Shown piece by piece: positions 1 to 36,617 of a DNA stretch of 37,152 bases. Origin of the DNA: a virus. The position numbers were made by a program, and so were the translations under genes. Location of the stretch: the IMG/VR virus record IMGVR_UViG_3300034044_000059, positions 1 to 37,152 of that record; one strand, 5' to 3'. Under the pieces are notes generated by a model that ran no database searches, had not been told where the DNA came from, and saw only the letters and a list, made by a program, of their open reading frames with translations. How positions within the stretch are numbered: position 1 is the stretch's first letter; each line of letters begins with the position of its first letter.

Positions 1-608
1 AGCATAACTGCTATTGCAGTTGCATCATCAGCGCCTAAGCAACTAGGCATATAGGGGTTGGGGACTACAAGACCAAATCTTTGAGATAATCCATAATCCT
101 GAAATTTTTGGGGCTGTGTCGGTTGTACCCCGTCACGTTTATGTTTACTGTCATAATGCGCTGTATCTAAGGATAAAAAACCTTTGTCATTAAGAAAAAC
201 ACGTTGATAAACGTCATCCGTGGGGGAATGCACTGTGTCTAAGTGACCTACGTGTAAGACACGATTTTCTTGGTCACCCGCTATTTTAATATAATAATTA
301 CCAAAGCTGTCTTGGGTGTAGTGAGCACCTAATTCGGCTAGGCGTGGCTCAAACCAATCGGTAAGAAAGCGTTTCTCACCAACACCACCATGCCCACGAC
401 GATAGCGACAAGCTTGGATTAAATACTGTTTAACAGTGTGGTGATAAGCTAAAGCGTTAGGGTCTTTAACATCCCCTAACTCAGGCGTTGGCTCAGTTAC
501 AGGCGTTATGATTAATGGTAGTGTCATTGAAAGTGGTACAGCCTCGGGAATACCCTTAGTACCTTTAGTCCAGTTAGTTGGTTTTGTGTGTTTATTGTGT
601 AAAGACAT
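1..608 (-). CDS. M20/M28-clan zinc metallopeptidase, 3' part outside window
   Basis: This open frame starts at ATG 608 and runs off the left edge, so only about 202 N-terminal residues are visible. Two signatures of co-catalytic zinc peptidases can be read: H-L-D-T-V at about residues 122-126 (metal His and Asp) and L-G-A-D-D at 191-195 (bridging Asp). These match the M20/M28/M42 clan of amino- and carboxypeptidases or deacetylases. Such genes occur in phages as accessory proteins; the substrate cannot be inferred here. The start has an AAAGGA Shine-Dalgarno sequence followed by TTCAACAATG, a degenerate copy of the phage's TCGACGATG start motif. A hairpin leader lies directly upstream. It is the last visible gene of the minus-strand cluster. 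The fold is fairly sure; the role is unknown. Confidence 0.75.
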   Translation of the reverse strand, partial: MSLHNKHTKPTNWTKGTKGIPEAVPLSMTLPLIITPVTEPTPELGDVKDPNALAYHHTVKQYLIQACRYRRGHGGVGEKRFLTDWFEPRLAELGAHYTQDSFGNYYIKIAGDQENRVLHVGHLDTVHSPTDDVYQRVFLNDKGFLSLDTAHYDSKHKRDGVQPTQPQKFQDYGLSQRFGLVVPNPYMPSCLGADDATAIAVM

Positions 609-645
609 TGTTGAATCCTTTGAGATATATAATCTCAGTTATTAA
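606..645 (-). promoter_or_regulatory. Stem-loop leader, copy 3
   Basis: Read on the minus strand: TTAATAACT, then a hairpin GAGAT-TATAT-ATCTC (plus coordinates 622-636), then AAAGGA and TTCAACAATG. The layout matches the leaders at 2598 and 3332, but the stem sequence differs while pairing is kept. Just upstream (651-675) is a further GGGGTTT/AAACCCC inverted repeat. Confidence 0.6.
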
Positions 646-700
646 GTTGTGGGGTTTCTCTTTTGGGAAAACCCCTTTTGTGGTGTAATACTCTACGTTA

Positions 701-757
701 TTGGGGGTCATTGACCCCCGAGGCTAGTATTGGGGTCATTGACCCCCGATGCTAGTT
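701..757. repeat. Tandem pair of GGGGTCATTGACCCC palindromes
   Basis: Two near-identical units of about 29 bp lie head to tail. Each holds the palindrome GGGGTCATTGACCCC (703-719 with five G/C per side; 732-746) followed by CGAGGCTAGT or CGATGCTAGT. Related palindromes lie at 2661, 3391, 5171, 5345 and 6061. The pair fills the gap between the 612-residue gene and the peptidase gene. No T-run follows, so simple intrinsic terminators are unlikely; operator or RNA hairpin is more likely. Confidence 0.7.
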
Positions 758-761
758 AGTA

Positions 762-2600
762 CTAAGCAGCATCTTCCTCAGGCTTGTTTAAATAAAAACA
801 ATCCTTAGCTTTGTCATAGTACAATTCGTCCATAGGGTGATATTCATCGTCTTCCTGAGCAATCGCCCAGCGTTTATAGCTAGCCCAATCTTCTAAATCA
901 GATTCAAAGATATAATCCTCCCCATCTGGGGTTTGTATAGCTTCATCAGTATAAAGACACTTCTCTAAGTAGCTTGAGTACACAGTGTCCTCCTCTAGAT
1001 ACCAGCTTTCACAACCGTAAGAATCAGTAGCTCTAACGTGTTGGTGTGCTTCGTGGTACTCAGCTTCATTACTTTCTAAATAATAATCAACCTCAAGTTC
1101 ATCATACAAAACATAACCATTATCCACGGCTAAATCTGAGATGAAGTCATTTTCATACTCTGAAAAATGACAACAGCTCTTATCAAAAGCTTCGTTGTAA
1201 TAACAACAACGTTGCCATGTACAATCCTCGTCATCCTCATAGAAGTACTCTTGTTCATAATAATCTGGAACCGCGTCATCCACGTGAAGGTACTCCTGAC
1301 GAGATTCACACCAAACTACATCTTCTTCATCATAGTACTCCTGACGCGTTTCTACGTAGACTCTATGGTCGTTCTCTTGGGCATCTGGAATAATACCCCC
1401 TTTGTGTCGATAGGCTTCTTTGAGTGAGCAACTAGGTCTATAAGGACGACCAACACCATAATCTTCGGTTGGTTCAACACATAGAATGCAACGACTAAGA
1501 ACCCCCAATTTCTCTGTATCACCACAAACTAATAATTTGTCCGTTTGTGTTGCAATCCCCTCAGGGATAACTGTGTTTATTAGCGTTTCACTACTATTTA
1601 TGCTTGAGGAAGATTCTAGCCTATCAGACCAAATAACTTGGTTTCTATATTCGAGGTTATTATCCACGTAAGGCAGAACTAGGACTCCCTCGTTACTATA
1701 GATAGCATTTAAAACACCACCTGTTAGGCTATTGTTGAAACCCATAGCTTTTATTTCTTCACTTACTCCATCATAAACACGACCATAATAATTATGGTTG
1801 CCCCCGTAAGGCTTCATCTCACGGTCAAATAGTAAGATGGTGCGAATATCGAACGGATATTCGTCGTCTTCCCACTCACTGTGATGAATTTTGGTGATCA
1901 AACCCAAACGCAAGTTAGGGCTGTTTTCGTATGTTTCCAGTGGATGAATCCACTTGGCATCCCCTGTGTATTTATCTGCATTTGGTCTAGGGTGCTGGTA
2001 AGCATCATTTGTCCGAGACATACATGATGAAACATTCCGTAAATTTTCAAACATTCGATAGTGCTTTGGAATGTGACAGTTAGTGGTATACAAGTACCAC
2101 GTATGCCCTAACGATGAAATATACTCTTGGATAGCTGCTACCCAAGCATCATAGCTATAGTGTTTGTCTTTGAATGGGAACTTGATATCCCCAAAGTCGT
2201 CTTTGAAGTCGCCATAAACGCGACCTAAAGAAACTTCCGATTTAACGCGACACTCTGTAGGGACGCCATTTACTGTTTCCCCCAATACACAGTAGGAATA
2301 TAGCCACTCGTCCACGGGGACGTTTCTCTCCTGTTTTAACCTGCGTAGGGTGCTAGGCGCTAAATTAAAATAAAATGCTGTTTTATACATCAGAATTTTA
2401 GATTTCTTCAAACACTTCATTTCAGAAGCGTCTAAAATTCGTAACTTACCACTAAAGATATTAAAACTTTTACGCACTTCGCTCACAATATCAGTTGGAT
2501 CTCCAGTTGACGCGCATTTAAATGGCTCGTCACGACCATCAATTGCCATGCTTGTAAGCACAGATTTTTTTAAAATTTCGTAGGTTTTTTCAGTAAACAT
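762..2600 (-). CDS. Acidic repeat phage protein of unknown function, 612 aa
   Basis: I do not recognise a characterised family. The middle part (about residues 190-350) holds a serine-Cys-Met motif, then HPLETYENSPNLRLGLI, a YGRVYDG segment and VLPYVDN. This order reminds me of an uncharacterised protein found in many tailed phages; that is recollection, not a search. The C-terminal third (about 415-600) is extremely rich in Asp, Glu, Tyr and Cys. It is built of degenerate units of about 18-22 residues, such as the paired RQEYYDEEDVVW and RQEYLHVDDAV. Such a chain would be strongly negative at neutral pH, so a DNA-mimic or protein-sequestering role is conceivable. The start carries AAAGGAATCGACGATG and the stem-loop leader. 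It is probably an early gene. Confidence 0.85.
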   Translation of the reverse strand: MFTEKTYEILKKSVLTSMAIDGRDEPFKCASTGDPTDIVSEVRKSFNIFSGKLRILDASEMKCLKKSKILMYKTAFYFNLAPSTLRRLKQERNVPVDEWLYSYCVLGETVNGVPTECRVKSEVSLGRVYGDFKDDFGDIKFPFKDKHYSYDAWVAAIQEYISSLGHTWYLYTTNCHIPKHYRMFENLRNVSSCMSRTNDAYQHPRPNADKYTGDAKWIHPLETYENSPNLRLGLITKIHHSEWEDDEYPFDIRTILLFDREMKPYGGNHNYYGRVYDGVSEEIKAMGFNNSLTGGVLNAIYSNEGVLVLPYVDNNLEYRNQVIWSDRLESSSSINSSETLINTVIPEGIATQTDKLLVCGDTEKLGVLSRCILCVEPTEDYGVGRPYRPSCSLKEAYRHKGGIIPDAQENDHRVYVETRQEYYDEEDVVWCESRQEYLHVDDAVPDYYEQEYFYEDDEDCTWQRCCYYNEAFDKSCCHFSEYENDFISDLAVDNGYVLYDELEVDYYLESNEAEYHEAHQHVRATDSYGCESWYLEEDTVYSSYLEKCLYTDEAIQTPDGEDYIFESDLEDWASYKRWAIAQEDDEYHPMDELYYDKAKDCFYLNKPEEDAA

Positions 2601-2637
2601 CGTCGATTCCTTTAGGGCATTTAGCCCAGTTGTTTAA
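2598..2637 (-). promoter_or_regulatory. Stem-loop leader, copy 1
   Basis: Minus strand: TTTAAACAACT, hairpin GGGC-TAAAT-GCCC (2615-2627), then TAAAGGAATCGACGATG, where ATG is the start of the 612-residue gene. A second small hairpin, GACC-TTTA-GGTC, lies just upstream (2642-2653). Copies 2 (3332) and 3 (606) have the same layout with different stem sequences. Confidence 0.65.
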
Positions 2638-2660
2638 ATAAGACCTAAAGGTCAAGTTTG

Positions 2661-2675
2661 GGGGTCATTGACCCC
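2661..2675. repeat. GGGGTCATTGACCCC palindrome
   Basis: A perfect 15-bp dyad with a single central base, in the gap between the 193- and 612-residue genes. Next to it (2685-2703) is a GAGGG/CCCTC hairpin followed on the minus strand by TGTTTTAA, perhaps a weak terminator for the 193-residue gene. Confidence 0.65.
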
Positions 2676-2752
2676 GAGTTAAAACAGGAGGGTTTATCCC
2701 TCAGGTTTGTTTAAGAAAGACTTCTGATCATCTTCTGACCAGTAGAGCCCAT

Positions 2753-3334
2753 CTATAGACTTTGGCTTGTGTCAGTTTTACTGGCGCGACCATAGGTAGC
2801 TGACCAAAACTTTAAGTCATCCTTATAAATTAAAGTTTTATTGTCAGGTGCAAGGGTGGTTGAATCCCCTAAATATATGTATGATATATAGAACTCTGAG
2901 TAAAGTCCTCGGCTCGCAAAGTCCCAGACTTTATTCAAGTCCTTTGTCGTGAACATAGTAATGTTCAATTGTACTCGCATTTTAGCGAGATTTTGGCGTC
3001 TAACATAGTCGTGGGCTATGTTATCCCACACCACGATCCCCGCTTTTACAGTCTCAACTGAAAAATATAACCCCTCAAAGCGACTGTAAATTAAATTAGC
3101 CATTAAATAGGCTTCGTGGTTGACACCACAATAAGCCCATTTGAAGTCTTCATCCCCGATGAATAGTACCTCATCGTAAAAACCACGAATCATGTCATCT
3201 CGTGATATATAGCCACCATAACTGGGGCAATAAACACAATTTGATTTGTGTTCATAGCCTCTGCGGTAAGGAAGATAAATTAAAACCTCAGAGTCTGGGT
3301 TATTAATTGGGATATGGGGACTTGTGTCAGTCAT
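2753..3334 (-). CDS. Hypothetical protein, 193 aa
   Basis: Not recognised. The protein is soluble-looking and rich in Tyr and Asp, with no signal peptide or membrane helix. An early Cys pair (NCVYCPSYGGY, about residues 32-42) and a later lone Cys (WAYCGVN) could bind metal, but no classic zinc motif is complete. The start has AAAGGAATCGACGATG, identical over 17 bases to the start of the next gene, and follows stem-loop leader copy 2. It is the first gene of the left minus-strand cluster and lies next to a candidate promoter with an overlapping palindrome, so early expression is likely. Confidence 0.8.
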   Translation of the reverse strand: MTDTSPHIPINNPDSEVLIYLPYRRGYEHKSNCVYCPSYGGYISRDDMIRGFYDEVLFIGDEDFKWAYCGVNHEAYLMANLIYSRFEGLYFSVETVKAGIVVWDNIAHDYVRRQNLAKMRVQLNITMFTTKDLNKVWDFASRGLYSEFYISYIYLGDSTTLAPDNKTLIYKDDLKFWSATYGRASKTDTSQSL

Positions 3335-3370
3335 CGTCGATTCCTTTAGAGCCTTTGGCTCAGTTATTAA
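3332..3370 (-). promoter_or_regulatory. Stem-loop leader, copy 2
   Basis: Minus strand: TTAATAACT, hairpin GAGCC-AAA-GGCTC (3349-3361), then TAAAGGAATCGACGATG. All five base pairs of the stem are kept, although the sequence differs from copies 1 and 3. That pattern favours a selected RNA structure over a DNA site. Confidence 0.65.
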
Positions 3371-3374
3371 TTTA

Positions 3375-3405
3375 GGTCAGTGACCAGTAAGGGGTCATTG
3401 ACCCC
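3375..3405. repeat. Two palindromes at the start of the left minus-strand cluster
   Basis: GGGGTCATTGACCCC (3391-3405) and a shorter relative GGTCAGTGACC (3375-3385) have centres 18 bp apart. The first would overlap the transcription start of the candidate promoter at 3411-3437, as an operator would. Confidence 0.6.
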
Positions 3406-3410
3406 TGAAA

Positions 3411-3437
3411 TTTATAGCAGTTTAAAAAAAGATACAA
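3411..3437 (-). promoter_or_regulatory. Candidate sigma70-type promoter for the left cluster
   Basis: Minus strand: TTGTAT (3437-3432), a 15-bp spacer, then TATAAA (3416-3411). The spacer is short, so this is tentative. A start of transcription near 3404 would fall inside the palindrome 3391-3405. Confidence 0.35.
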
Positions 3438-3719
3438 GTTTTTTATTAAACTACAGGGTTTAAATTTAAATGAGTTGTGTTGGCAACCCATTAAATGCTC
3501 ACGAGGCTATCAAACGAGCACAAGGAGCTGTTTTATTGGGTAGTTAACCCAATCATACCACTTTTGTTTTAAAGTGGCTTAAAAAGCGTTATAGAGCTTT
3601 TAAGTATTTTGGTGTCCCAAATGGTTTGCCCTCTTTGGTGTTTAGTTGTGGTTGTCGCGTTGATACCACTTTTAAAATAAATATTGATACTAAGTAAGCA
3701 ATAACTAGAACACCAAATT

Positions 3720-3747
3720 AAAATCGAAAATCGAAAATCGAAAATCG
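3720..3747. repeat. Heptamer AAAATCG, 4 tandem copies
   Basis: Four exact head-to-tail copies of AAAATCG lie in an A-rich stretch. The unit length, 7 bp, equals that of the second array at 5029. Confidence 0.85.
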
Positions 3748-3956
3748 AAATATAAAAAATTTTGCATGTTGTTTTTAAAACCTAAGAAACTAGAAAATTG
3801 AAACTCAAAACTAAGGACAAAAAACAACAACAAAAAACAACGATAGAAATAGAGACAAAATAAAAACCAAAAAACAAAAATTGGTTTAAGAAAATAAATC
3901 AAGGCTAAAAAAGAGTACTGGTCAAACCAGTTGAGCTTAATCAGGTGATTTAGGAA

Positions 3957-4232
3957 AAGTGCACACTTTCGCCCCTAATGAAAAATACATTATATATATA
4001 TATAGAAAAAGTTTTTTTTGTGTGCACTTTTTCACTTTTTTGCTCTTTTCCTAGAGCTGGTGCGGTTTGTAGGCGTTTTTTGGTCATTTTTGGTGATTTG
4101 TGCACTTTTTTGAAAATCGTAGCTCTTAAACCCCTGAAACCATTAGGAAAGTTTGCGGAATGAGGGGTAAAAATAGCCCTTTTTCACCTGATTTTTTTAG
4201 AATAAATACTCTAAAAAGTTTGTGTGCACTTT
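3957..4232. repeat. Four dispersed GTGCAC boxes
   Basis: The GTGCAC core occurs at about 3959, 4022, 4100 and 4223, each next to T- or A-rich flanks (for example AAAGTGCACACTTT at 3957-3970 and TTTGTGTGCACTTT at 4219-4232). Recurrence of a palindromic hexamer with similar flanks within 280 bp suggests protein-binding sites. Confidence 0.5.
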
Positions 4233-4316
4233 GCTTTTTTCCGTCCAAAAAATTAATGCTTTATTAACACTTTATTAACAGTGTTTTTGGTTATTTTTTG
4301 ACCAGTTTTACCGCTG

Positions 4317-4325
4317 TTATACACA
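4317..4325 (+). other. DnaA-box match TTATACACA
   Basis: A perfect match to the TTATNCACA DnaA-box consensus inside the AT-rich region and beside the inverted and direct repeats. One 9-mer of this kind can occur by chance; its context raises its value. Confidence 0.45.
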
Positions 4326-4384
4326 ACAAAAAATGCTTAAAAATCCCTAAAAAACCCTAAAAATTCGACCCGATTATTAACAAT

Positions 4385-4520: not shown

Positions 4521-4658
4521 GGTTCATGGCGTGGCAAATAGAACTTTACAAGGCTGGTTTATAACTCGTATAGTGCCAAATTATGCTTTAAATAGTAGAG
4601 GTAGTGCTCGGTTTGGGTTTATAGCACCCACCCCAGGCTGCTGATTTTACTACAAAAA

Positions 4659-4840: not shown

Positions 4841-5008
4841 TTATCGACTAAAAAACTCGACAAGTAACACGGCTAAAATCCCTAGAATACAGCTATTTAA
4901 GCTGTATTCTGTTCTAAACTCGTTACCCCAATCTAGGATTAGGGCAAACACACTAACTATGCAAACCATTACCAGCGTTATTAGCGTAGTTAAATTTAGT
5001 ATAATCAT
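4841..5008 (-). CDS. Small two-helix membrane protein, 55 aa
   Basis: A short gene that is easy to overlook. ATG 5008 is preceded by AAGGATTCGACG, so it has both a Shine-Dalgarno sequence and the phage's TCGACGATG start motif; this decides the start. The protein has one hydrophobic segment at about residues 8-25 and a second at about 40-53, joined by a charged loop (LDWGNEFRTEYSL). It ends in FFSR. Two short helices with a small loop are compatible with a holin-like, antiholin or superinfection-exclusion protein, but nothing else supports one of these. Its 3' end adjoins the iteron repeats and its 5' leader contains the AAGGCGT array. I do not recognise a family. Confidence 0.6.
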   Translation of the reverse strand: MIILNLTTLITLVMVCIVSVFALILDWGNEFRTEYSLNSCILGILAVLLVEFFSR

Positions 5009-5028
5009 CGTCGAATCCTTATTATTAC

Positions 5029-5084
5029 ACGCCTTACGCCTTACGCCTTACGCCTTACGCCTTACGCCTTACGCCTTACGCCTT
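5029..5084. repeat. Heptamer ACGCCTT, 8 perfect tandem copies
   Basis: Eight identical 7-bp units (AAGGCGT on the minus strand) start 21 bp upstream of the ATG of the 55-residue gene and lie in its leader. Perfect identity suggests recent slippage expansion or selection. The ACGCC core recurs in many other places between 4385 and 6410. Confidence 0.9.
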
Positions 5085-5373: not shown

Positions 5374-6045
5374 CTAGGCTTGGAAATTTTGCCTAGCCAG
5401 ATTGAGGACTGCGGCTTTTGCTATTGCCAATGCCTTTTCTTTTGTTTTTTCCTTTTTTGCTAGTTCAAATATAGCATTGACAGCCTCCAAGGCTGCTGTT
5501 TGGGCTTGTTGGATTACTTCTTTATCCAAAGTTGGTTCAACTTGCGCGGAAACCGCGCTATTGCTTTGTTCCCCGGTTGCCGTTATTTTCTTAGGGTTTT
5601 CTTGCGCGGAAACAGCGCCATTGCTTTGTTCCCCGGTTGCCGTTATTTTCTTAGGGTTTTCTTGCGCTGGTAACTCTTTTTTGGTCATTGCCATTAGTGC
5701 CGTCTCGAGCTCCGTACTATTATTAAAATTATCTACTTTTAATAATTTGAATTTCTCAGGGCAAACGTCCTTAGCCGTTGATGCAATAGCTTGCATCTTG
5801 CGTATACGTTTACAAAATTGATAGGGTGCACTGTCCTTTTTCGGGTTAATTTTATACCCTAAAATATTATACATTTCATCGACCTCATACGGCTCAGCGC
5901 CCAATTTTAGCCGTTGAATAATACCCTTATTAATTGAAAATCTAAGTTTGAGATCACGCTTTTGAAGATTGAAAAGCGCTTTTATGTTTTTGGCTAAAAT
6001 AGTGTCAATAGCCGATAATGTAGCGGTACTGTTAGTAGTAGTCAT
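5374..6045 (-). CDS. Hypothetical protein with 20-residue duplication, 223 aa
   Basis: The ATG at 6045 is preferred over a GTG 47 codons upstream. It has an AAAAGGGA Shine-Dalgarno sequence and GGAATATACAATG, a loose match to the phage's start motif; the upstream extension overlaps promoter-like and hairpin sequences. Residues 1-100 are basic and helical, with a segment resembling a helical nucleic-acid-binding domain (RLKLGAEPYEVDEMYNILGYKI). The middle has two copies of a 20-residue unit beginning AQENPKKITATGEQSN. The C-terminus is an Ala/Glu/Lys-rich helix. I do not recognise a family. Its place between the candidate origin and the helicase gene would suit a replication accessory or DNA-binding protein, but that is a guess. 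Confidence 0.75.
   Translation of the reverse strand: MTTTNSTATLSAIDTILAKNIKALFNLQKRDLKLRFSINKGIIQRLKLGAEPYEVDEMYNILGYKINPKKDSAPYQFCKRIRKMQAIASTAKDVCPEKFKLLKVDNFNNSTELETALMAMTKKELPAQENPKKITATGEQSNGAVSAQENPKKITATGEQSNSAVSAQVEPTLDKEVIQQAQTAALEAVNAIFELAKKEKTKEKALAIAKAAVLNLARQNFQA
5541..5670 (-). repeat. 60-bp tandem duplication within the 223-aa gene
   Basis: Units 5541-5600 and 5601-5660 differ at few positions and are followed by a partial third (5661-5670). The duplication stays in frame and contains GCGCGGAAACCGCGC, itself an inverted repeat in the first unit. It is likely a flexible linker with variable copy number. Confidence 0.85.
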
Positions 6046-6060
6046 TGTATATTCCCTTTT

Positions 6061-6077
6061 GGGGATCATTGACCCCC
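6061..6077. repeat. Palindrome next to the ribosome-binding site of the 223-aa gene
   Basis: On the minus strand GGGGGTCAATGATCCCC can form a 7-bp hairpin that ends just before AAAAGGGA, the Shine-Dalgarno sequence. The position parallels the stem-loop leaders at 606, 2598 and 3332. Upstream in the same leader is a second hairpin (6112-6131, arms GGTGTCAA and TTGACGCC with a TTTT loop). Confidence 0.6.
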
Positions 6078-6169
6078 AGTCGTATAATGGACGGAATTGT
6101 CCCGTGTGCAAGGCGTCAAAAAATTGACACCTTACGTTTGGGGCTAAGCTTCTCTCACCCCATGAACAT

Positions 6170-6423: not shown

Positions 6424-6561
6424 GTTCTTATGAGCAAGCAACAAGCAACAAACAACAAACAACAATAAAAATTTGGCATAAAAAAAAAGCCCACAATAAA
6501 GGGGCTTTCTTGGTTTTGCAGGCTTCGTTACTGAGGGTGTAAAACAGTACGTCCTATTCAT
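6406..6561 (-). CDS. Possible 51-aa small membrane protein
   Basis: ATG 6561 carries the CTTCGACGATG start motif but no clear Shine-Dalgarno sequence. The frame encodes 51 residues with one hydrophobic segment (about residues 28-43, Leu/Val/Cys-rich) after a basic N-terminus. Against it, a strong terminator hairpin (6486-6508) lies inside the frame, so most transcripts from the local promoter would end before the stop codon. The motif may instead mark a truncated or regulatory reading frame in a small RNA. Confidence 0.3.
   Translation of the reverse strand: MNRTYCFTPSVTKPAKPRKPLYCGLFFYAKFLLLFVVCCLLLAHKNLLVQA
6478..6508 (-). terminator. Intrinsic terminator
   Basis: Minus strand: AAAGCCC, a 9-nt loop, GGGCTTT, then a continuing run of T (eight in all). 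It is well placed to end both the local small transcript and messages reading through from the helicase gene. Confidence 0.75.
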
Positions 6562-6665
6562 CGTCGAAGTATATTATCTTAATGTTTGCCGCTAAGTACT
6601 ACCTGTATAGCCAATCAAACACTAGAGTAGATTCTAGTTGATCACTGTATATAACCACACTAGAC
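6478..6665 (-). ncRNA. Candidate small independent transcript, about 185 nt
   Basis: A good promoter (6700-6672) and a strong intrinsic terminator (6508-6478) bound a unit of about 185 nt on the minus strand. It contains a TCTAGT/ACTAGA inverted repeat near its 5' end and one TCGACGATG motif at 6561-6569. Either a small regulatory RNA or a short mRNA is possible. Confidence 0.35.
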
Positions 6666-9788: not shown

Positions 9789-9885
9789 ATATCACCGTCG
9801 AATTTTTATTTGTGGTGGTAAATGATACCTTAGATTCTTTTTTATTTCCCGTTTTCAATGTAAACTAGAGAAAATTTAATCGACG

Positions 9886-9897
9886 ATGACCCTATGA
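9886..9897 (+). promoter_or_regulatory. Three-codon leader mini-ORF overlapping the terL start
   Basis: The motif AATCGACGATG opens a frame of ATG ACC CTA TGA whose stop overlaps the terL start as ATGA (9894-9897). No Shine-Dalgarno sequence precedes it. This geometry is typical of termination-reinitiation coupling. The same arrangement occurs at 26610. Confidence 0.5.
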
Positions 9898-11663: not shown

Positions 11664-11680
11664 CAAATAGAGACTCGACG

Positions 11681-13147
11681 ATGGCTGGCACAGACATATT
11701 AAGTAAGTTAAAAATTCTACTGCCTAGTAGAACAAAACCTAAGGGGTCTATTCAAACTCCGACCTACGATGATGCACAAAAATCATCAGTACTCAGTGTA
11801 CCAACATACAAAGACCATCTATCTGATTTAATTAGCAACCGTCAGTCTCAAGACTCACAAACCCTAATCCTAGATTTATTACGTACTGACCCTGATGCAA
11901 GTAGTGCTCTAAATAGTTATCTTACAACAGCTGACGTTGAACCCTATATTTTAGTTAAAGACCCTGATGGTGTGATAGACCGTGATGGGCATAAAATTGT
12001 TAACCAAGTTTTAGAAGCTTTAAGTGTTAGACGAGATTATTCAAAAGGGTTTATGCACAAGCGTTCATTACGCGCTATTTTTGAAGATATGCGCTACATG
12101 ATTCTAGCTCGTGGTGGAGTTGGTGTTGAAGCTGTTTTTGATGAAGTACTTTCATTGAGTGAAATACGTAACGTTGATTTAGCCTCAATTCGATGGCAAG
12201 AAAAGCAAGCTGGTTTGTTAACTCCTTACCAAGACCGAGGGCAAGGCGACCCAATTAAGATTGACATACCTACGTTTTTTGTTGGTTTCTACCGAAAGTC
12301 GCCAACATCAGCCTACACTTACAGCCCGTTCATCAGCGCCATAAATACAATGGCAGCTAGACAGCAAGTAATTAACGACTTGTATAGAATAATGCAAGTA
12401 ACAGGTTACCCACGTATAACCATAAAAGTTCTAGAAGAAGTTCTTGCTAAGAATGCCCCTGCGGATGTTCGCTCTGACCAAAGACAAATGCGTCAGTATA
12501 TCAATGCTAGAAGAACAGAGATTCTTGGACAATTTTCATCTATTCGCCCAGACGAACCGTTGGTTCACATGGATAGTGTTGATATTTCTATCTTAAACGA
12601 TAAAGCCCCCGCAATGAGTCTCAACATAACATCAATCATAGATACCTTGAACGCTCAAAACCAAGCTGGGTTGAGAACAATGGCTACCGTACTAGGTCGT
12701 GGTGAAGTTGGTGTAAACACTGCAACGGTTGAAGCTCAATTGTTTGCCAGAAATGCTGCCTCAATTAATAAACCTATCGGGGAAGTTATAAGTTCTGTAT
12801 TAACCCTTGCAATACGGTTGCTAGGTTCTGAATCAAGAGTTATATTAGAATTTCCTGACATTGATTTGCGCTCTGAGTTAGAGTTGGAAGCCCAGCTTAA
12901 CTTAAAGGCAAACAGACTTCGGTCAGATTTGAGTGACGGGTTAATTACTGATGACGAATATCATTTAAAAATGTATAAGCGTATAAGACCCGATAGCGCC
13001 CCAGAACTGATGGGTACAAAATTTGTTGGGGCAAGTATGAAAGTTGACCCTGCTGCGGTTAGCCCTAATAGTGACCCGACTGGACGTTCAGTTAGTAGGG
13101 CAGCAGATAAAGCTGCAAAATCTAACCAGAACAAGATAAAACAATAG
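11681..13147 (+). CDS. Portal protein, 488 aa
   Basis: Position right after terL, length, and an Asp/Asn-rich N-terminal region with a helical stem and crown-type C-terminus fit a phage portal, the dodecameric ring through which DNA enters the capsid. Conserved-looking segments include LLRTDPDASSALNSYL near residue 65 and IIDTLNAQNQAGLRTM near 330. The C-terminal tail is Lys/Ala-rich. Start ACTCGACGATG has only a weak GAG upstream. Family assignment below 'portal' is not possible by eye. Confidence 0.8.
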   Translation: MAGTDILSKLKILLPSRTKPKGSIQTPTYDDAQKSSVLSVPTYKDHLSDLISNRQSQDSQTLILDLLRTDPDASSALNSYLTTADVEPYILVKDPDGVIDRDGHKIVNQVLEALSVRRDYSKGFMHKRSLRAIFEDMRYMILARGGVGVEAVFDEVLSLSEIRNVDLASIRWQEKQAGLLTPYQDRGQGDPIKIDIPTFFVGFYRKSPTSAYTYSPFISAINTMAARQQVINDLYRIMQVTGYPRITIKVLEEVLAKNAPADVRSDQRQMRQYINARRTEILGQFSSIRPDEPLVHMDSVDISILNDKAPAMSLNITSIIDTLNAQNQAGLRTMATVLGRGEVGVNTATVEAQLFARNAASINKPIGEVISSVLTLAIRLLGSESRVILEFPDIDLRSELELEAQLNLKANRLRSDLSDGLITDDEYHLKMYKRIRPDSAPELMGTKFVGASMKVDPAAVSPNSDPTGRSVSRAADKAAKSNQNKIKQ

Positions 13148-13185: not shown

Positions 13186-13207
13186 GTAAATTTAATAGGA
13201 ATCGACG

Positions 13208-14389
13208 ATGACAAAAAAAGTAACTCTAACCGAGAAGCTTAAAGAGCAAATCCGTAAGGTTGTTGGAGGCGACATTGCCTTTGATAAAATAGCTGTCTAT
13301 GAAGCTGTCGTTGCTTCTACTCGTCCAATATCTCAAAGAAATTCTGCCTATGATGGGGCTGTGTTAACCGAAGCCTATCTAAATCAAATGGTTGAGTATC
13401 TAGCCGAAGAATCTGTCCCAGTTCAAGTGATGCACAACAACGAAGTACTCCCCATTGGTAAGGTGTTCTCTGCTGGTGTGCTTGATGTAGAACAAGGTCA
13501 AAAAGACTTAAATGCTTTGTTTTATGTTGAGTCTGACAGTGACTTTGCTAATAAAATTGATTTAGGGATCATAGATGAAGTGTCTATTGGTTCTCTACCT
13601 AAACACGCTCTATGTAGTGAATGTGGTTTTGATTATGCTGCTAACGGTAACGAACTAGCGTTTTACTTTCGTGAGTGTGACAAGGGTCATGTTTTAGGTG
13701 AAAACAATGTTCACCTAAACCTAACAAAAATGGCGAACTGGAGTGAACTTTCTTTAGTCGGAAAGGGAGCTTCTGATAAACCTAAAATTCTTGGCACAGC
13801 CAAGCAACGATTGAGTAAAGACTCTTATGAAAAGTTAGCCGCGTCTGGTATTTCACCTGACCGCGTTGATTTGACGTATCTTCATTGCTCAGCAACTCAA
13901 CCCCCAGAAAATAACGAGGACGTAGATATGGATCTTAAAGCCCTGACTACACAAATCTCTGACCTATCTGCGGCTAAAGCTAAGCTGGAACTTACCAAAG
14001 AACAAGTTGATACCCAACTGTCTGCGGCTAATGAACAGTTGCAATCAGCCAAGGATAAAATTGTAGATTTAGAAACACAACTAGCTGCTAATTCTGATTC
14101 AGAATTATCAGTTAAATTGGCAGATGTAGAAGCTAAGTTAGCTGATGCAGACAGAGCTAAAGAATATTTAGCCAAACAGGTAAAAGTTGCCTGTGTTGCT
14201 GCTGATATTAAATTAGCCGAAGATGCCTCTTTGGATGACCAAATTGAAGCTTTAGAAAAAGCTCAAGTTCGCCTAGCTGCTATCCCTCGCGGGGGTGTGT
14301 TACAGGGTTCTGAGGTAGACCGAGAAGCTTTAGATAATTTAACCGCAAGCGCACAGCACAACAGCGCTTTTTCATTACGTAATAAATAA
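13208..14389 (+). CDS. Prohead protease fused to scaffold, 393 aa
   Basis: The N-terminal 190 residues have the S78/U35-type prohead protease pattern. MHNNEVLPIGKV carries the likely catalytic His (H76), EVSIGS the Ser (S126), and ELSLVGKGA a closing strand. Between these lies an unusual Cys/His cluster (C136, C139, C157, H161) that looks like a small zinc knuckle. After a Pro/Asn/Glu linker, residues about 240-345 form a long Ala/Leu/Glu/Lys coiled coil typical of a scaffold. Such fusions cut themselves and the capsid protein's scaffold during maturation. An internal start at 13928 may yield the scaffold alone. Start: ATAGGAATCGACGATG, below a good promoter. Confidence 0.8.
   Translation: MTKKVTLTEKLKEQIRKVVGGDIAFDKIAVYEAVVASTRPISQRNSAYDGAVLTEAYLNQMVEYLAEESVPVQVMHNNEVLPIGKVFSAGVLDVEQGQKDLNALFYVESDSDFANKIDLGIIDEVSIGSLPKHALCSECGFDYAANGNELAFYFRECDKGHVLGENNVHLNLTKMANWSELSLVGKGASDKPKILGTAKQRLSKDSYEKLAASGISPDRVDLTYLHCSATQPPENNEDVDMDLKALTTQISDLSAAKAKLELTKEQVDTQLSAANEQLQSAKDKIVDLETQLAANSDSELSVKLADVEAKLADADRAKEYLAKQVKVACVAADIKLAEDASLDDQIEALEKAQVRLAAIPRGGVLQGSEVDREALDNLTASAQHNSAFSLRNK
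13928..14389 (+). CDS. Possible separate scaffold from internal in-frame start, 153 aa
   Basis: ATG 13928 is in frame with the protease gene and is preceded by AACGAGG with an 8-nt spacing to the start. It begins MDLKALTTQISDLSAAKAK, just at the onset of the coiled coil. Nested scaffold genes of this kind are known in lambda (C and Nu3). Confidence 0.5.
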   Translation: MDLKALTTQISDLSAAKAKLELTKEQVDTQLSAANEQLQSAKDKIVDLETQLAANSDSELSVKLADVEAKLADADRAKEYLAKQVKVACVAADIKLAEDASLDDQIEALEKAQVRLAAIPRGGVLQGSEVDREALDNLTASAQHNSAFSLRNK

Positions 14390-14796: not shown

Positions 14797-14826
14797 GCAC
14801 TCATTCTAAAATTTGGAGATTCGACG

Positions 14827-16044
14827 ATGAATTTAAAACCAACCACTGATATTCAGCGCAAACCACTTGAAGTTGTACTGGGTAAGATTAATAGCCAAGA
14901 CCCAGATGAATCACAACGCGCTGGTTTATCTCTTATCAGAGAAGCCAAAGAATATGGCTTAAATGTACGTGACTACTTAACCTTAGCGGTTGATGTTCGT
15001 GCTTCTAATAAAGAAGCTAACGGCATGAAATATAACCCTTATATGTTAGGTGAGGGTCGTTTTATGACTGGTTATGAAGCGGCTATTTCAGAGCTTAACT
15101 TACCATTTAAAAATGACTTTAGCCAAGGTGTCACATTACAAGCTGCGGCTGATACTTTTAGCTCTCGCGCTGGTACACGTGCGTTATTCCCAGAAGTAAT
15201 TGACGATATGTTGCAGTGGGCAACACGCCAAGAGTTCTTGGAAAATGCCAGTAACTTAGTAGCTCAATCACGTACTATTAAAGGTAATGAGTTAATTACT
15301 CAAGCTATCTTTGATGACCAAAACCCTAGCGGTGGCTCACCAATCGCTGAATTAGCCAACATTCCAGTGCAGACTTTAACAAGCTCTGACCGTTCTGTTA
15401 GCTTCTTCAAACATGGTTCTGCTATTCGTACTTCGTATGAATTTGAAAGACGTGTAAGCTTAGATGTACTAACTCCATACGCAAGCCGTATTGCTCGTAA
15501 CTTAGAAATTAGTAAAGTTAAGCAAGCAACTAATCTATTGATTAGTGGTGATGGTGTACATAATGCGGCTGATACCGTAGCAATCACTAGTTACAAAAAT
15601 GGTGATATTGCTGGTGGCAAAACATTAAAAGATAACTATATCGCTTTAATGGATTTCTTAGTTCAACGTGCTAAAGCTGGTACGCCAGTTGATACAATCG
15701 TTGGTAACTTAGATATGTATTTAGAGTTATTCTTAATGTTTACGCCTGTGACTGGAAACAAATCTGTTTCTGAACACTTGCAAGACAAAGGTGCTCCTAC
15801 TGTATCACTTAACTTACCATTAATGAAAGGTGTTAACTTTGAGTTATCAAGCTCAATGCCAGCTGGTAAATTAATGTGTTACAGCAAAGCTGATACCTTA
15901 GAAGAATTGATTGAAGCAAACTCTCAAATTTCTGAGTCTGAATCAGCAGTTCGTAACCAGTCTATTACGTATGTTAAGACTGAAACCTCTGGTTATCGCT
16001 TGATTTATGGTGATACTCGTATGATTTTAGACGTTACTGTTTAA
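14827..16044 (+). CDS. Major capsid protein, 405 aa
   Basis: Size, position and sequence character fit an HK97-fold major capsid protein. A helical N-terminal region of about 110 residues is followed by LFPEVIDDMLQW (start of the shell domain) and a mixed alpha/beta body ending in strands (YRLIYGDTRMILDVTV). The N-terminal region could serve as delta domain. GGAG and ATTCGACGATG both mark the start. A strong terminator follows, so this gene probably ends an early-late transcript, allowing a high capsid level. Confidence 0.85.
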   Translation: MNLKPTTDIQRKPLEVVLGKINSQDPDESQRAGLSLIREAKEYGLNVRDYLTLAVDVRASNKEANGMKYNPYMLGEGRFMTGYEAAISELNLPFKNDFSQGVTLQAAADTFSSRAGTRALFPEVIDDMLQWATRQEFLENASNLVAQSRTIKGNELITQAIFDDQNPSGGSPIAELANIPVQTLTSSDRSVSFFKHGSAIRTSYEFERRVSLDVLTPYASRIARNLEISKVKQATNLLISGDGVHNAADTVAITSYKNGDIAGGKTLKDNYIALMDFLVQRAKAGTPVDTIVGNLDMYLELFLMFTPVTGNKSVSEHLQDKGAPTVSLNLPLMKGVNFELSSSMPAGKLMCYSKADTLEELIEANSQISESESAVRNQSITYVKTETSGYRLIYGDTRMILDVTV

Positions 16045-19051: not shown

Positions 19052-19361
19052 GTATTAGCCCTAAGTCTAGGACTGATGCGCAGATAGCTATTTGAAAAGC
19101 TTGTTGTCTAGTATATAGTGTCTTAGAACAATAAGTGTCCAACTTTGTGAGTTCACAGGTGGATAATCTTAATGTAAAATGTTTTGTAGATGACTTAATA
19201 TCAAAATCACGCATATCTGGTGTTGGTAATTGATTATCTAAAAAATGATTAATTAGCGTAACTAATTTTTCAGAATTAGTTTCACAATTAATCGGTGCTT
19301 GCTGTGCAAGCGTTATGATAGCTTCGGGGCTTCGGATCGCTATAGGGTGTTTCTTACTCAT
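19041..19361 (-). CDS. Ribbon-helix-helix DNA-binding protein, 106 aa
   Basis: A real opposite-strand gene inside the tail module: it fills an otherwise empty gap, and its GGAATCACCAATG start resembles the phage motif. The C-terminal 45 residues fit an Arc/MetJ-type ribbon-helix-helix: a strand (HFTLRLS), a helix (CELTKLDTYCSKTL), a turn, then a helix (TRQQAFQIAICASVL). The N-terminal 60 residues are helical. Such proteins bind inverted repeats as dimers of dimers, often as repressors. Being convergent with a late gene, its transcription could also oppose late reading. The target is unknown; the palindromes of the left region are candidates. It behaves like a moron gene. Confidence 0.7.
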   Translation of the reverse strand: MSKKHPIAIRSPEAIITLAQQAPINCETNSEKLVTLINHFLDNQLPTPDMRDFDIKSSTKHFTLRLSTCELTKLDTYCSKTLYTRQQAFQIAICASVLDLGLILKR

Positions 19362-19427
19362 TGGTGATTCCAGTTTCTAAGTGTTAATAGGTATTGAGTA
19401 TAACCTAAAAATTAAGAGGAATCGACG

Positions 19428-20261
19428 ATGGCGGCTGATGCTAAAACCACAAACTTTATGCTAGGTGTTGCGGAAGTAATGCTTGGTAATGTAAATGAAT
19501 TATATGACCTTAATCCTGTAACACATGGTATTGGGCTTGTTAAAAACTTTACGTGCGAGGCTACTAAAGATCGTACAGATTTAACGCAAGGTAGAACAAA
19601 CGATATTGTTTTTAGTATGACAACATCATCAACAACTAAGTGCAATATGGAAGTCTACGAGTATTCTGTATCAAATATGGCTTATGCCCTTGGTTTACAA
19701 GGTGGTGCTGTTACTGTAGCTTCTGGTGATGCGTTAACAACTACTGGTTCAGTAGCTTTTTCTTCTGGTTCAGTTTCATTGTCTTTTGCCGATGGCACTG
19801 GTTTACAAACACCTATCGTGGGTGACTATGTATCATTACGTAATCCTAATTCAGAAAATATCCTTATGGGTAAAGTTTCTGCGGTTACTGGTATTACGGC
19901 TGGTACAGCTTCTACAGCTACAATGACTGTTGATATTGCTGACTTAAACTCTACTCAAACAATAGCTGCTGGAACGTTAGTTTCTGTGGTTAATGTTCTT
20001 GATATTGGTTCAACTGACGTTGACTACGACCTCTCAGCAAAAGTTTCTGGTCAGTTAGCGAATGGTACTTGGGTAACTTTCTTATTCCCGAAAGTACGTA
20101 TTACTTCTGGGTTGTCTATAGCATTTACCACAGATAACTTCGGTAATATCCCGTTTGAGTTCACACCGTTAAAAGCTTCGGCTTCTGACCCGTACTACGC
20201 TGAGTTTAAAGGAGTTGCGGCTAAAATATTGGTTGACTCAATCAAAGCACCTTTAGCTTAA
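19428..20261 (+). CDS. Major tail tube protein, 277 aa
   Basis: Size, position after the tail terminator and before the chaperones, and a beta-rich sequence fit the tail tube protein that stacks as hexameric rings. A Ser/Thr/Gly/Val-rich insertion (about residues 95-175) resembles an Ig-like or surface domain placed inside the tube fold. The start is AGAGGAATCGACGATG. A terminator follows, again compatible with abundant expression. Confidence 0.8.
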   Translation: MAADAKTTNFMLGVAEVMLGNVNELYDLNPVTHGIGLVKNFTCEATKDRTDLTQGRTNDIVFSMTTSSTTKCNMEVYEYSVSNMAYALGLQGGAVTVASGDALTTTGSVAFSSGSVSLSFADGTGLQTPIVGDYVSLRNPNSENILMGKVSAVTGITAGTASTATMTVDIADLNSTQTIAAGTLVSVVNVLDIGSTDVDYDLSAKVSGQLANGTWVTFLFPKVRITSGLSIAFTTDNFGNIPFEFTPLKASASDPYYAEFKGVAAKILVDSIKAPLA

Positions 20262-20314: not shown

Positions 20315-20353
20315 TATACTGATAAAAATAATTTATACATAGTTGAAACGACG

Positions 20354-20758
20354 ATGACTACCACGCAACAACACATTGATCCACATTTCACATTCAAAAC
20401 CAGTAACGAAAGCTACGACCTATTTATGTCTTTTGGTTTACTGAATCAATTGAGTCGATTTTTTACTGACTTATCAGAGTTAGATGAAATCTACCGAAAC
20501 CCAGAAGTAAAAGGGGCTATCTTAATAGAATGCCTGTCCGAGCGAGATACTCGTGGAGGCATAACATCACCATTCAATTTAATGGAATTGGAATGCACTA
20601 ATGCTGATGTTGAAGAACTTTTAGTTTGGGTTGAGCAACATCTTACTGATTTTTTTGTTCAGGCTCTACGCTTATCCAACCACGCAATTCAGCGCAGAGC
20701 AGCAATACTCAAAGCGACCAAATCAGCCCAGTCTACAGAAGTTGGTACGAGGGATTAA
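20354..20758 (+). CDS. Tail assembly chaperone, G-like, 134 aa
   Basis: A helical protein ahead of the tape measure gene in the position of lambda gpG. It probably coats the tape measure during tail assembly. Codons 99-101 (GAT TTT TTT) create an in-phase T-TTT-TTT slippery heptamer (20650-20656) for -1 frameshifting into the next frame. The start AAACGACGATG lacks a Shine-Dalgarno sequence. Confidence 0.75.
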   Translation: MTTTQQHIDPHFTFKTSNESYDLFMSFGLLNQLSRFFTDLSELDEIYRNPEVKGAILIECLSERDTRGGITSPFNLMELECTNADVEELLVWVEQHLTDFFVQALRLSNHAIQRRAAILKATKSAQSTEVGTRD

Positions 20759-21030: not shown

Positions 21031-21041
21031 AGGAATCGACG

Positions 21042-24000
21042 ATGACGAAAAAAACGCTCTTAGCTGAGATTAAGATTAGTAAAAAAACTACATCTGACTT
21101 AGAGGCTTTTCAAAAGAAACTATCAGCTTTAGCCGCGGAACTAAAAAAAACTGAGGCAGCGTTTGCTAAAGTAGCACCGTCATCACGCGACCCTAAACTT
21201 TCAAAAGCTTTAAAACTTCAACAAAATGATTTAGGTAACTTCCTCAACATTTCTAGAAAGAATTTACTCTCTGGGGTTAAAGACCCCAGTGCGCGTAAAT
21301 TTATAGAAACTCAATTAGCTGAGTTAAAAAATCAGATTCTTGGTAGTGTTAAAACCAGTTTTAAAGAGGGATTGCGCCTAAACTTTAAAGAACTAGAAAA
21401 AGAAGCTTATTCTAAATCTCAATATAAAGCCCCTAGAGGTTCACTCCTAAATAAAGATTTAGGGAAGCTAACCACTAAGGCTGAACTTTCGGATATGCGA
21501 GAGCAATTAAAGCTTTCAAAATCTGCGGCTACTGAGTACGTAAAAAATCTCTCTACTAGTGGTAAGGCTTGGACTAACGAACATAAATTAGCTCAAAACC
21601 AACTAGCGCTTTTTGAAAAGCGACTAAAAGAAGTTAACGAGATGATTCGTGCGTTATCAAGCACGAAATCCTCAGGTGGTGTCCCACTACCTAAAAAGAC
21701 AGCCCATGAACTCGCTCAACTACGTGCTTCTCAAGGCGCTTTAGATGGTTCAGCAAAACGTAATTATAACGGTGGTGCTAATCTATTTTTAAACCAAGCC
21801 CAAGTAATGAGAAATTTTTTGATTATGGGTGGTGGTTTAGGGGCTCTTGGTAGTTCTGCAAGCTTTGTTACTGGGCTAGACAAATCATTTAAACAACTGC
21901 AATCAATTGTTAATTTAACCAACAATGAAATGGAAACACTTTCTAAACGATTGATTGATGTTTCTGAAAAAACCAAATTCACAGCCGTTGAAGTTGCTGA
22001 CGCAGCTATTGTTTTAGGTCAAGCTGGTCTAGGGAAAGACCAAATCGAAAACTCTATTGAAGCTATCACGCTTTTTGCCACAGCCGTTGGTTCAGATTTA
22101 AAAAGCGCTGTTGACTTAGCGACCTCTACGTTAGGTGTTTACAATAAAGACGCCTCTCAAATGACGACTATTGTTGACGAAATGACTGTAGCCATCAATA
22201 ACTCGAAATTGAACCTTGAGAAACTAACCTTAGGTTTACAATACTCAGGTAATATCGCAGCCCAATCTAACGTAACCTTTGAAGAAACTGTCGCTGCCCT
22301 AGCAGCTATGGCTAACTCTGGTATTCGTGCTGGGTCTACTTTGGGTACAGGTTTACGTCAAATTTTAATTGCATTACAAAATCCGAGTGTTGGTTTCAGA
22401 AAACGTGTCTCTGAGCTCAACATTGATATGGCTAAACTCAACATAAGCACTCATGGTTTGATCCCAGTATTAAAAGAATTGGGACAAGCTGGGTTCACTG
22501 TTAATGATGCTATGAAAACTATGCAAGTTAGGGCGGCTTCTGCATATGGTGCATTCATTAACAACATAGACTCCGCAGAGGAGCTTTCAGTAAAAATGAA
22601 ACTAGGTGGCGCAGCAACTAAAGCAAATGCCACTCAAATGAAAGCTTTCTCAAACCAGTTAGACAGATTCGGGTCAACGGCTAAGTCAGTTGTCTATGAA
22701 GCATTCAAACCATTTTTAGAAACGTTAACTAAGATAATTGAAAAGGGAGCTGATTTTTTAAGCTTTTTAAAAGCTGCTGCTCCTTTACTAACAACAATAG
22801 CAACACCTTTGCTTGTTTTAGGTTCTGTATTAGCCACTAGAAGTGTCGCTAGTCTCGGTTATGGTGTAGTGGCTAGTGCTGTTGATAGTTTTAGAGCTGC
22901 TAGAAGCACCCCAAAAATTACAAAGGGTGAAACTGCTTCGGCTGGTAAAGTAATAAAAGAAACTATTACCAAAGGGGGTAGTGTTAGGTCGTTAGCAAGT
23001 GCAGTTTTAAGTGTGTTGAAAGTAACCCCTGTGGTAGCTGCAATAACTACAATTGCGTCTGCGGCTATTCTGGGTTACAGCTACTTAAACAACAAAAGCA
23101 CTCAAGGTTTAAAGAGTGACATAGCCCAAGCTAACGTGAATGAGGCTACCTCAAAATTCTCGAAGTTTGAATCCACTGCAAAGAAAGTTAATAAAGAAGT
23201 TATATCGTTAATTTCAAAGCAACAGTTATTGATTAATGATACTAGTGGTGCTTTGCTAACCAGAGAAATTCAGCGTTTAAACAGAGAGTATAAAACCTTT
23301 GGTTTGTATCTCGACTCCAGTGTTACCTCTTTTGACGACCTATTACATAAGGTTCAAGACTTTCGAGCCAACCTATCAGGCATTGGTGATGATTATAAAA
23401 AGTCTCTTTATAAACAGGGTGGCTTGCTCGACAAAGCAGCCTTTATAGATATTGAAGATTATCTAAATAAGAAACAACAGAAAGCTTCTGAACAAAGACG
23501 TGCTGCTAAATATGAGACTGGCGTAGACAATATTCCTTACGGGAGTTATGGCTATACTCCACCTATAGAGTTACCAGAAAACAACCGACAAAAGACTACC
23601 AAAGCCGCGCTTATAGAAGTACTTGGGTCTAAAGATTTATACAAGGAACTTATAACTAATAGCTATTCTAATGTAAATTCTTTGAAACAAAACTCTGATT
23701 CCGAAGCTGGTTTTGCTCGGTCTAAAACCTATGTTGATAATTTGAATAAAGGGATTGCAGTGCTTGAGGGTTTCTTTAGTCGAAACCAAGATAGCGCATT
23801 CAACATAATTGGTAAGAAAGTTGGTACTTCTGGAACGCAAGTTAAATCTGAGCTAAAAGCAACACTTGAGGACTTTAAGCATGAAATGGAACTTATTACT
23901 AAGTTCTTAGAAACTCGTAAAAATGTCTTTGAGGCTAACTCAGCCTCAGCTAAAGAAACTCAAGCGGCTATTGATGAAGCTCTTGGAAAAAATGGCTTTC

Positions 24001-26464: not shown

Positions 26465-26493
26465 TTTACAGGGGTGTTATATGAGTCTAATAT
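26465..26493 (+). promoter_or_regulatory. Sigma70-type promoter before the tail tip genes
   Basis: TTTACA (26465-26470), a 17-bp spacer, TAATAT (26488-26493), in a 216-bp gap. A GAGT/ACTC inverted repeat brackets the -10. Upstream (26430-26465) an A/T inverted repeat, AAAAAATATT/AATATTTTTT, may terminate the tape measure transcript. Confidence 0.5.
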
Positions 26494-26517
26494 AATACTC
26501 GGTTTGTGTAAGCAGAT

Positions 26518-26526
26518 CATCGTCGA
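26518..26526 (-). promoter_or_regulatory. Reversed copy of the TCGACGATG start motif
   Basis: Minus strand AAATCGACGATG with ATG at 26520 opens a frame of only 26 codons. Its upstream sequence is the hairpin at 26535. It is either a very small gene, a remnant, or evidence that the motif also has a role apart from start codons. Confidence 0.35.
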
Positions 26527-26534
26527 TTTATATT

Positions 26535-26554
26535 AACCCTGCTTCGGCAGGGTT
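26535..26554. other. UUCG-tetraloop hairpin
   Basis: AACCCTGC-TTCG-GCAGGGTT, an 8-bp perfect stem with a stable UUCG loop when read on the plus strand. No T-run follows, so it is not a classic terminator. It lies in the leader of the L-like gene, about 35 nt after the predicted transcription start. Confidence 0.65.
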
Positions 26555-26609
26555 CCATCTCTAAAGTATCTCGGATATACTCAAGTAATAAAACTTGGCA
26601 ACTCCGACG

Positions 26610-26618
26610 ATGATATGA
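26610..26618 (+). promoter_or_regulatory. Two-codon mini-ORF overlapping the start of the L-like gene
   Basis: CTCCGACG followed by ATG ATA TGA; the stop overlaps the true start as ATGA (26615-26618). This is the same layout as at terL. Confidence 0.5.
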
Positions 26619-28705: not shown

Positions 28706-28739
28706 GCCACAAACAATTACAATTATAATTATTTCGACG

Positions 28740-28754
28740 ATGATAGGTGCATAA
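28740..28754 (+). promoter_or_regulatory. Four-codon mini-ORF ahead of the J-like gene
   Basis: TTTCGACG then ATG ATA GGT GCA TAA; the stop lies 3 nt before the ATG of the J-like gene (28758), in the same frame. Either a coupling mini-ORF or a nonsense mutation near an original start at 28740. Confidence 0.5.
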
Positions 28755-36215: not shown

Positions 36216-36230
36216 AATTAGGACTCGACG

Positions 36231-36617
36231 ATGATAGTGACACCGACAGATTTGACAACCCTGACGTTCACCCCTGTACAAGATGCAGTGGTTACTGAGC
36301 GTGTATTCGACGTTGACAGCAATGGAACGATTTACACAACACTTGTTCACATCGACAAGCAGACAACCGACAGCAATGGTGACGGTACACCAGATACGCT
36401 AGACGCTAAATTTTGCTGCTCAATCATCAATTTAGATGGTACAGAAGTTCTCGTAAATAACGCCCCAGTTAAAATATCCCAAGTTCACAGTGTTGCAGTT
36501 TCAGCCATTAACGATGGGAGTGTTGTGCTGACTGATTGGGTAGCTGGAATCAGCGCAACAATGTTGCCCACGTTAATCAACAAAAAAGCCACCCTCACAG
36601 CATGGGGGGGATTCTAA
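36231..36617 (+). CDS. Hypothetical protein after J, 128 aa
   Basis: Starts at GGACTCGACGATG with AGGA as Shine-Dalgarno sequence. Beta-rich, with an Asp-rich loop (DSNGDGTPDTLD) of the calcium-binding type seen in thrombospondin-3 or dockerin repeats. It is probably a small tail or accessory structural protein. The stop overlaps the next start (TAATG). Not recognised. Confidence 0.65.
   Translation: MIVTPTDLTTLTFTPVQDAVVTERVFDVDSNGTIYTTLVHIDKQTTDSNGDGTPDTLDAKFCCSIINLDGTEVLVNNAPVKISQVHSVAVSAINDGSVVLTDWVAGISATMLPTLINKKATLTAWGGF

Follow-up and report, generated by a model that had tools for sequence, protein, structure and literature searches.

The start-associated sequences (SAS/ESAS) of cluster K mycobacteriophages are short, asymmetric and located a few nucleotides from start codons, at genes with larger upstream gaps; inverted repeats lie upstream of about half of the SAS, and the K1 phages have one reversed copy without a gene (PMC3203893). 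Many asymmetric, oriented sites are also distributed across the genomes of temperate cluster A mycobacteriophages, where they are known as stoperators (PMC9283540). At the RNA level, the c4 antisense RNA of phages P1 and P7 (77 nt) pairs around a ribosome-binding site, blocks translation and has a role in immunity, while VpdS of phage VP882 and PreS of lambda are phage-encoded trans-acting base-pairing RNAs, with VpdS targeting both phage and host mRNAs, according to the account in PMC12197685.

The window analyzed here is a 37,152-base IMG/VR virus record with a GC content of 0.40, a fragment of a phage with siphovirus packaging, head and tail genes. In this window, 15 exact copies of CGACGATG were found on the two strands, compared with a mean of 0.19 in 100 dinucleotide shuffles, none of which reached 15. 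The start-associated motif noticed in a preliminary description of the window is therefore real, and all the motif positions listed there exist (Table 1). Fourteen copies lie ahead of genes or ORFs on the same strand and one (26518-26525, minus strand) ahead of none; this reversed copy had already been singled out as the sole one not fronting a gene. Matches inside the capsid gene (I-D-D-M) and an HTH gene (K-I-D-D-N) were rejected as coding coincidences.

Table 1. Motif copies and predicted antisense RNA locus in the window
Feature	Position	Strand	Remarks
motif TCGACGATG	2598..2606	-	start of 612-aa gene (ATG 2600); AAAGGAA and hairpin GGGC/GCCC precede
motif	3332..3340	-	start of 193-aa gene (ATG 3334); hairpin GAGCC/GGCTC upstream
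motif	5006..5014	-	start of 55-aa ORF (ATG 5008); gene uncertain
motif	6559..6567	-	start of 51-aa ORF (ATG 6561); gene uncertain; without Shine-Dalgarno
degenerate motif TCGACGGTG	9793..9801	-	just ahead of start codon (9788) of 161-aa gene
motif	9880..9888	+	upstream of terminase large subunit gene terL, true start 9894
motif	11675..11683	+	portal gene start
motif	13202..13210	+	start of 393-aa gene (phrog_37797)
motif	14821..14829	+	major capsid gene start
motif	19422..19430	+	start of putative tail tube gene
motif variant ACGACGATG	20348..20356	+	start of tape-measure chaperone gene
motif	21036..21044	+	tape measure gene start; preceding gene's stop codon immediately 5'
putative promoter of antisense RNA	26465..26493	+	TTTACA-17 nt-TAATAT (G010: TTGACA-17-TAATAT)
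predicted antisense sRNA	26500..26562	+	5' end inferred from promoter; 5' stem-loop 26501-26518, seed, terminator hairpin
seed TCATCGTCGATT	26517..26528	+	reverse complement of target motif AATCGACGATGA; the reversed copy
terminator-like hairpin AACCCTGC-TTCG-GCAGGGTT	26535..26554	+	tail weakly T-rich in window phage
motif variant CCGACGATG	26604..26612	+	upstream of minor tail gene, true start 26615
motif	28734..28742	+	24 nt upstream of start codon (28758) of 2485-aa tail fibre gene
motif	36225..36233	+	start of 128-aa gene 3' of fibre gene

The motif had been introduced as a start-codon motif, but its conserved core, (A)TYGACGAT, is not tied to the start codon, which lies 0-28 nt further on, and the Shine-Dalgarno sequence is found before or after the core. 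The ATG is dispensable, as shown by the forms TTGACGATATG and TTGACGATTATG; at terL and the fibre gene, a separate Shine-Dalgarno lies 3' of the motif. Likewise, the ATG of the motif had been taken as the gene start throughout; reading frames and orthologue alignment place the starts assigned to 9886, 26610 and 28740 at 9894, 26615 and 28758. At 5008 and 6561 the motif copies were confirmed, but the ORFs they front encode only 55 and 51 aa and have no support from relatives. The list of copies was also incomplete: TCGACGGTG at 9801-9793 (minus strand) had been overlooked, and orthologues of the 9788 gene in motif-bearing relatives carry the motif. The weak variants proposed at 608, 6045 and 19361 are doubtful, with a predicted seed pairing (see below) of -5.0 to -6.6 kcal/mol against -16.6 to -23.3 kcal/mol otherwise, and orthologues of the gene at 19361 are without the motif. 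Several motif copies do lack a preceding Shine-Dalgarno, as was claimed, and genes without the motif do tend toward tight coupling to the preceding gene. In Pseudoalteromonas phage KB12-38, motif-bearing genes have a median upstream gap of 63 nt, and genes lacking it one of 8 nt (P=0.0002). The tape measure gene, with an upstream gap of ~11 nt, is one of the exceptions to this trend.

Relatives were sought with the capsid protein, TerL and the 393-aa protein, giving KB12-38 and a number of IMG/VR records; these relatives have capsid proteins 72% to about 60% identical to that of the window. Each carries 28-49 copies of the motif, as GGAAATYGACGAT or GGATTGAC; for TYGACGAT in these 65-91 kb genomes, 3-6 would be expected under a second-order Markov model. 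No such excess was observed in five more distant relatives, JWF, Lumi, Seuss (partial), Mystique and G009 (5-10 found, 4-10 expected). In KB12-38, 22 of the 27 copies of the form GGATTGAC are located at -45 to +8 of an annotated start, an area that alone predicts 3%. The motif is shared by the window and the orthologues in relatives at terL, portal, the 393-aa gene, capsid, tail tube, tape-measure chaperone, minor tail, fibre and the 9788 gene, and it is absent from both at the primase and eleven other genes. KB12-38 mostly shares this pattern, with no match at terL, portal and fibre. The preliminary view of a phage-wide start-associated motif, with a spacer conserved independently of the Shine-Dalgarno and kept at orthologous genes, thus held up in the relatives, where both presence and absence agree. 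KB12-38 and G010, among several relatives, encode an integrase, and G010, which was scanned in full, an HTH_3 protein; the motif phages are at least partly temperate. A pattern scan of IMG/VR returned mostly chance matches, and four led to relatives (L084, L089, L146, L181). One of them, L084 (IMGVR_UViG_3300034044_000061), is a 33-kb contig with TCGACGATG almost exclusively and a ProQ gene, and may be closely related to the half of the window's phage that is missing.

The comparison with the cluster K sequences, made in the preliminary description, is apt as an analogy. Here too, the motif stays within a few nucleotides of the start codon and tends to mark genes whose upstream gap exceeds 50 bp. 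The cluster K SAS differ in their 13-bp consensus GGGATAGGAGCCC, an unrelated sequence from phages of another host, and in being confined to non-structural genes, whereas the motif described here is also found at structural genes (terL, portal, capsid, tail tube and tape measure). The single reversed SAS of cluster K phage Anaya (L200) is located at 59870 on the minus strand in a 385-nt non-coding gap. No adjacent terminator was seen there on inspection, and the parallel with the reversed copy therefore stays a lead.

Many of the motif copies at early genes are preceded by a palindrome that is specific to the phage (GGGGGAATGTTCCCCC, GGTGGGGAACTCCCCACC, GGGGGCATGTGCCCCC, GTGTTCACGTGAACAC, GGGGTAACGTTACCCC). 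Such palindromes were found upstream of early genes in the relatives L035, L044, L192, L198, L027 and L028, with 10-14 per genome, 58-80% of which are followed by the motif 15-95 nt away, mostly 15-40. They differ even between close relatives. The order of the palindrome and an AT-rich block varies between phages and within G014, while the motif stays at the start codon; palindromes and AT-rich block therefore form a separate layer, perhaps of operator and promoter. By analogy with the cluster K ESAS, the palindromes are candidate immunity operators or RNA hairpins. Upstream hairpins as such were rejected as the conserved element: they are enriched, yet missing at many sites, and many of them are palindromes that differ between phages.

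Some local structures were observed in addition. Small hairpins occupy a near-constant place just 5' of AAAGGA on the minus strand of the window (590-660, 2560-2660, 3295-3395, 6000-6090) and have different sequences there (GAGAT/ATCTC, GGGC/GCCC, GAGCC/GGCTC, GGGG/CCCC), and the sister contig L084 has the identical layout. A tandem heptamer, (CGTAAGG)n, lies directly upstream of the motif copy at 5014 (5015-5080, minus strand). In G010 (L036; 23240-23280) and G006 (60270-60310), the tape-measure chaperone gene has a Shine-Dalgarno that is preceded, at a distance of a few nucleotides, by the end of a terminator-like hairpin with a T-run, so that no promoter would fit between them.

The reversed copy, mentioned in the preliminary description as a mere exception, turned out to be the most informative one, as the opposite strand has the anatomy of an antisense sRNA gene. 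It was present and syntenic in all 13 phages checked (11 that were measured, and later L201 and L214), always between the gene after the tape measure and the minor tail gene and never fronting a gene. No conserved ORF follows on its own strand, the reading frame being 3 codons in several phages, 10 in KB12-38 and 25 in the window. The opposite strand reads 5'-promoter-stem-loop-ATCGTCRA(TTTCC)-hairpin-3', with a predicted RNA length of about 63 nt for the window and of 80-88 nt for the other phages (~65-85 nt overall). A terminator-type stem starts exactly 10 nt past the anti-core in 11 of 11 phages. With the same lax stem test, 43 of 402 other sites had any such stem, at scattered distances. 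A sigma-70-like promoter pair is located 33-42 nt before the end of the anti-core with near-fixed spacing in the 11 phages (TTGACA-17-TAATAT, TTGACA-17-TAATCT, TTGACT-17-TACTAT, TTGACG-16-TAATAT or TTTACA-17-TAATAT). The promoter match of the window, taken alone, is within chance for the region; in G010 a consensus scan gave TTGACA-17-TAATAT together with an 11-pair terminator.

The stems vary in sequence yet pair, and 7 of 11 terminator pairs had changed on both sides, indicating compensatory changes. Fold prediction gave a 5' stem-loop and a 3' hairpin for all loci; in the predicted folds the seed is exposed, except that it is largely paired in KB12-38 and partly paired in G006. A covariance model built from the G010/G006 clade only and applied to held-out phages matched the syntenic place in G012 (E 2e-8), L201 (7e-6), G014 (1e-5), the window (0.006) and L214 (0.012), and found KB12-38 weakly (E 0.5). 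It had no match below E 0.1 in the motif-negative relatives. In two of these, JWF and Seuss, the flanking genes overlap, and in Lumi they are 44 nt apart, which leaves no room for an RNA gene. No Rfam family reached its gathering score at the locus, the best being STnc180 with 18.2 of 50 bits. Taken as sequence evidence, the case for a predicted RNA locus is strong.

Each seed matches the consensus of its own phage including the spacer length, with GGAATTG in G014, GGAAATTG in G010 and GGATTGACA in KB12-38. Predicted pairing between a seed and the sites of its own phage averages -17.8 to -22.6 kcal/mol, compared with about -6 kcal/mol for random 40-mers, and the own seed was the best partner of the own sites in 5 of 6 phages, with three seeds tying in G010. 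Agreement of this kind within a phage would also be expected if the reversed copy were just another DNA copy of the motif. The site adjacent to the locus ranked 12/17, 23/46, 15/40, 23/27 and 24/26 in pairing strength. Distant sites usually pair better, which favors action in trans over a purely local role.

We consider it likely from these comparisons that a single trans-acting antisense sRNA, encoded by the phage, has the motif as its shared target and would probably block translation initiation. The sRNA, predicted at about 26500-26562 on the plus strand, would be transcribed from its own sigma-70-like promoter and consist of a 5' stem-loop, a 12-15-nt seed antisense to the ribosome-binding motif of the same phage, and a terminator hairpin. 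It may pair with the translation-initiation regions of some 15-45 phage genes. As the predicted duplex spans the spacer next to the Shine-Dalgarno and in most cases the start codon as well, it would be expected to block ribosome binding, and repression is the default expectation; the direction of regulation, up or down, is the least certain step of the proposal. A ProQ/FinO-domain protein of the phage itself may assist the sRNA. The likely purpose would be coordinated translational control across the genome, either as silencing in the lysogen or as a timing switch.

Instead of an RNA target, the motif could be a start-associated translation signal read by a protein or the ribosome, as in cluster K, with an incidental reversed copy. 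Such a signal would agree with the narrow distance of 0-28 nt from the motif to the start codon that follows, whatever the strand and gene class, and with the parallels in PMC3203893, among them the inverted repeats ahead of many early genes. We nevertheless regard it as unlikely, since it leaves unexplained why one geneless antisense copy is kept in every phage with promoter-like and terminator flanks at constant spacing. A protein binding TCGACG, suggested in the preliminary description as the partner of the motif, is less well supported than an RNA partner. A local, cis-acting attenuator is also conceivable, in which the anti-motif of a read-through transcript would pair with the ribosome-binding site 78-106 nt further down, that of the minor tail gene. 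The anti-motif and the adjacent site do form an inverted repeat in phages with the locus, but this site nowhere pairs best and often ranks near the bottom, and a terminator-like hairpin, in several phages also a -10-like box, intervenes. We give this reading little credence.

We also regard it as very improbable that a repressor uses the motif as an asymmetric DNA operator. The sites do share their asymmetry and their orientation along transcription with the cluster A stoperators, and an integrase in several relatives and the HTH_3 protein of G010 would be in keeping with a repressor. Stoperators, however, are bound as DNA by a protein repressor and lie in promoters and short intergenic gaps, whereas the motif is fixed between Shine-Dalgarno and start codon rather than anywhere intergenic, and the phage-specific palindromes upstream are better operator candidates. 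A role of the motif within a phage promoter, which would put a -10-like box at -13 and the transcript start on the motif itself, seems extremely improbable. A -10-like signal does occur at the fixed offset of -13 in G010, G006 and KB12-38, but the offset is -12 in G014, the signal is absent in G012, and a palindrome occupies the place of the box in G012 and in part of G014. The motif of the tape measure gene, moreover, directly follows a stop codon, and the T-run of the signal is equally predicted by pairing with the seed (CCAAAU). A promoter for a phage RNA polymerase was not supported either, as no PF00940 match was obtained, in a weak test in which the control was silent too. Extended anti-Shine-Dalgarno pairing was dismissed, with no consistent match found by eye. 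The 16S rRNA stretch AAAGGAATTGACGG, known from a standard primer site, shares 13 nt with the consensus of some phages. Mimicry of 16S rRNA was treated as a coincidence, as the TCGACG and GGATTGACA variants break the match.

A ProQ/FinO gene was found in 10 motif phages, a set that takes in all the full-length ones tested, and the five motif-negative relatives yielded none. The window, as a phage fragment, does not include it. Few genes are common to the motif phages and missing in the others (ProQ/FinO, integrase, a replication-origin-binding homologue and a methyltransferase). Judged from this shared gene content, the ProQ association may reflect shared ancestry, tracking one lineage in which it arose once.

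The putative antisense sRNA resembles c4 as a small phage RNA that would pair around ribosome-binding sites, but c4 has a single target, the ant mRNA, and here one seed matches 15-45 genes. VpdS and PreS use the Hfq of the host, whereas the motif phages encode a ProQ/FinO protein of their own, and the account in PMC12197685, as far as it goes, mentions for VpdS and PreS no unvarying target box that recurs at a large share of the genes of the phage itself. It is possible, and proposed here only tentatively from the sequences, that in a family of temperate phages one self-encoded sRNA, together with a self-encoded ProQ-type chaperone, governs much of the genome as an RNA-based immunity or lysogeny switch. 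The sRNA of such a switch would pair with one unvarying box at ribosome-binding sites, those of early as well as late genes, much as a protein repressor acts on its many operators.

If the antisense reading is correct, a single RNA would exert post-transcriptional control over the whole genome of a phage. The phage antisense RNAs found in our literature search act on one or a few mRNAs, and the predicted RNA appears able to reach the initiation sites of a large proportion of the phage's genes, with targets that span early and late functions and that drift between phages together with their regulator. This reading would also provide a candidate job for the phage-encoded ProQ/FinO protein. Similar antisense logic might, by analogy, underlie start-associated sequences in other phages, giving a testable idea for sequences that, reported in 2011, are still said to have no known role.
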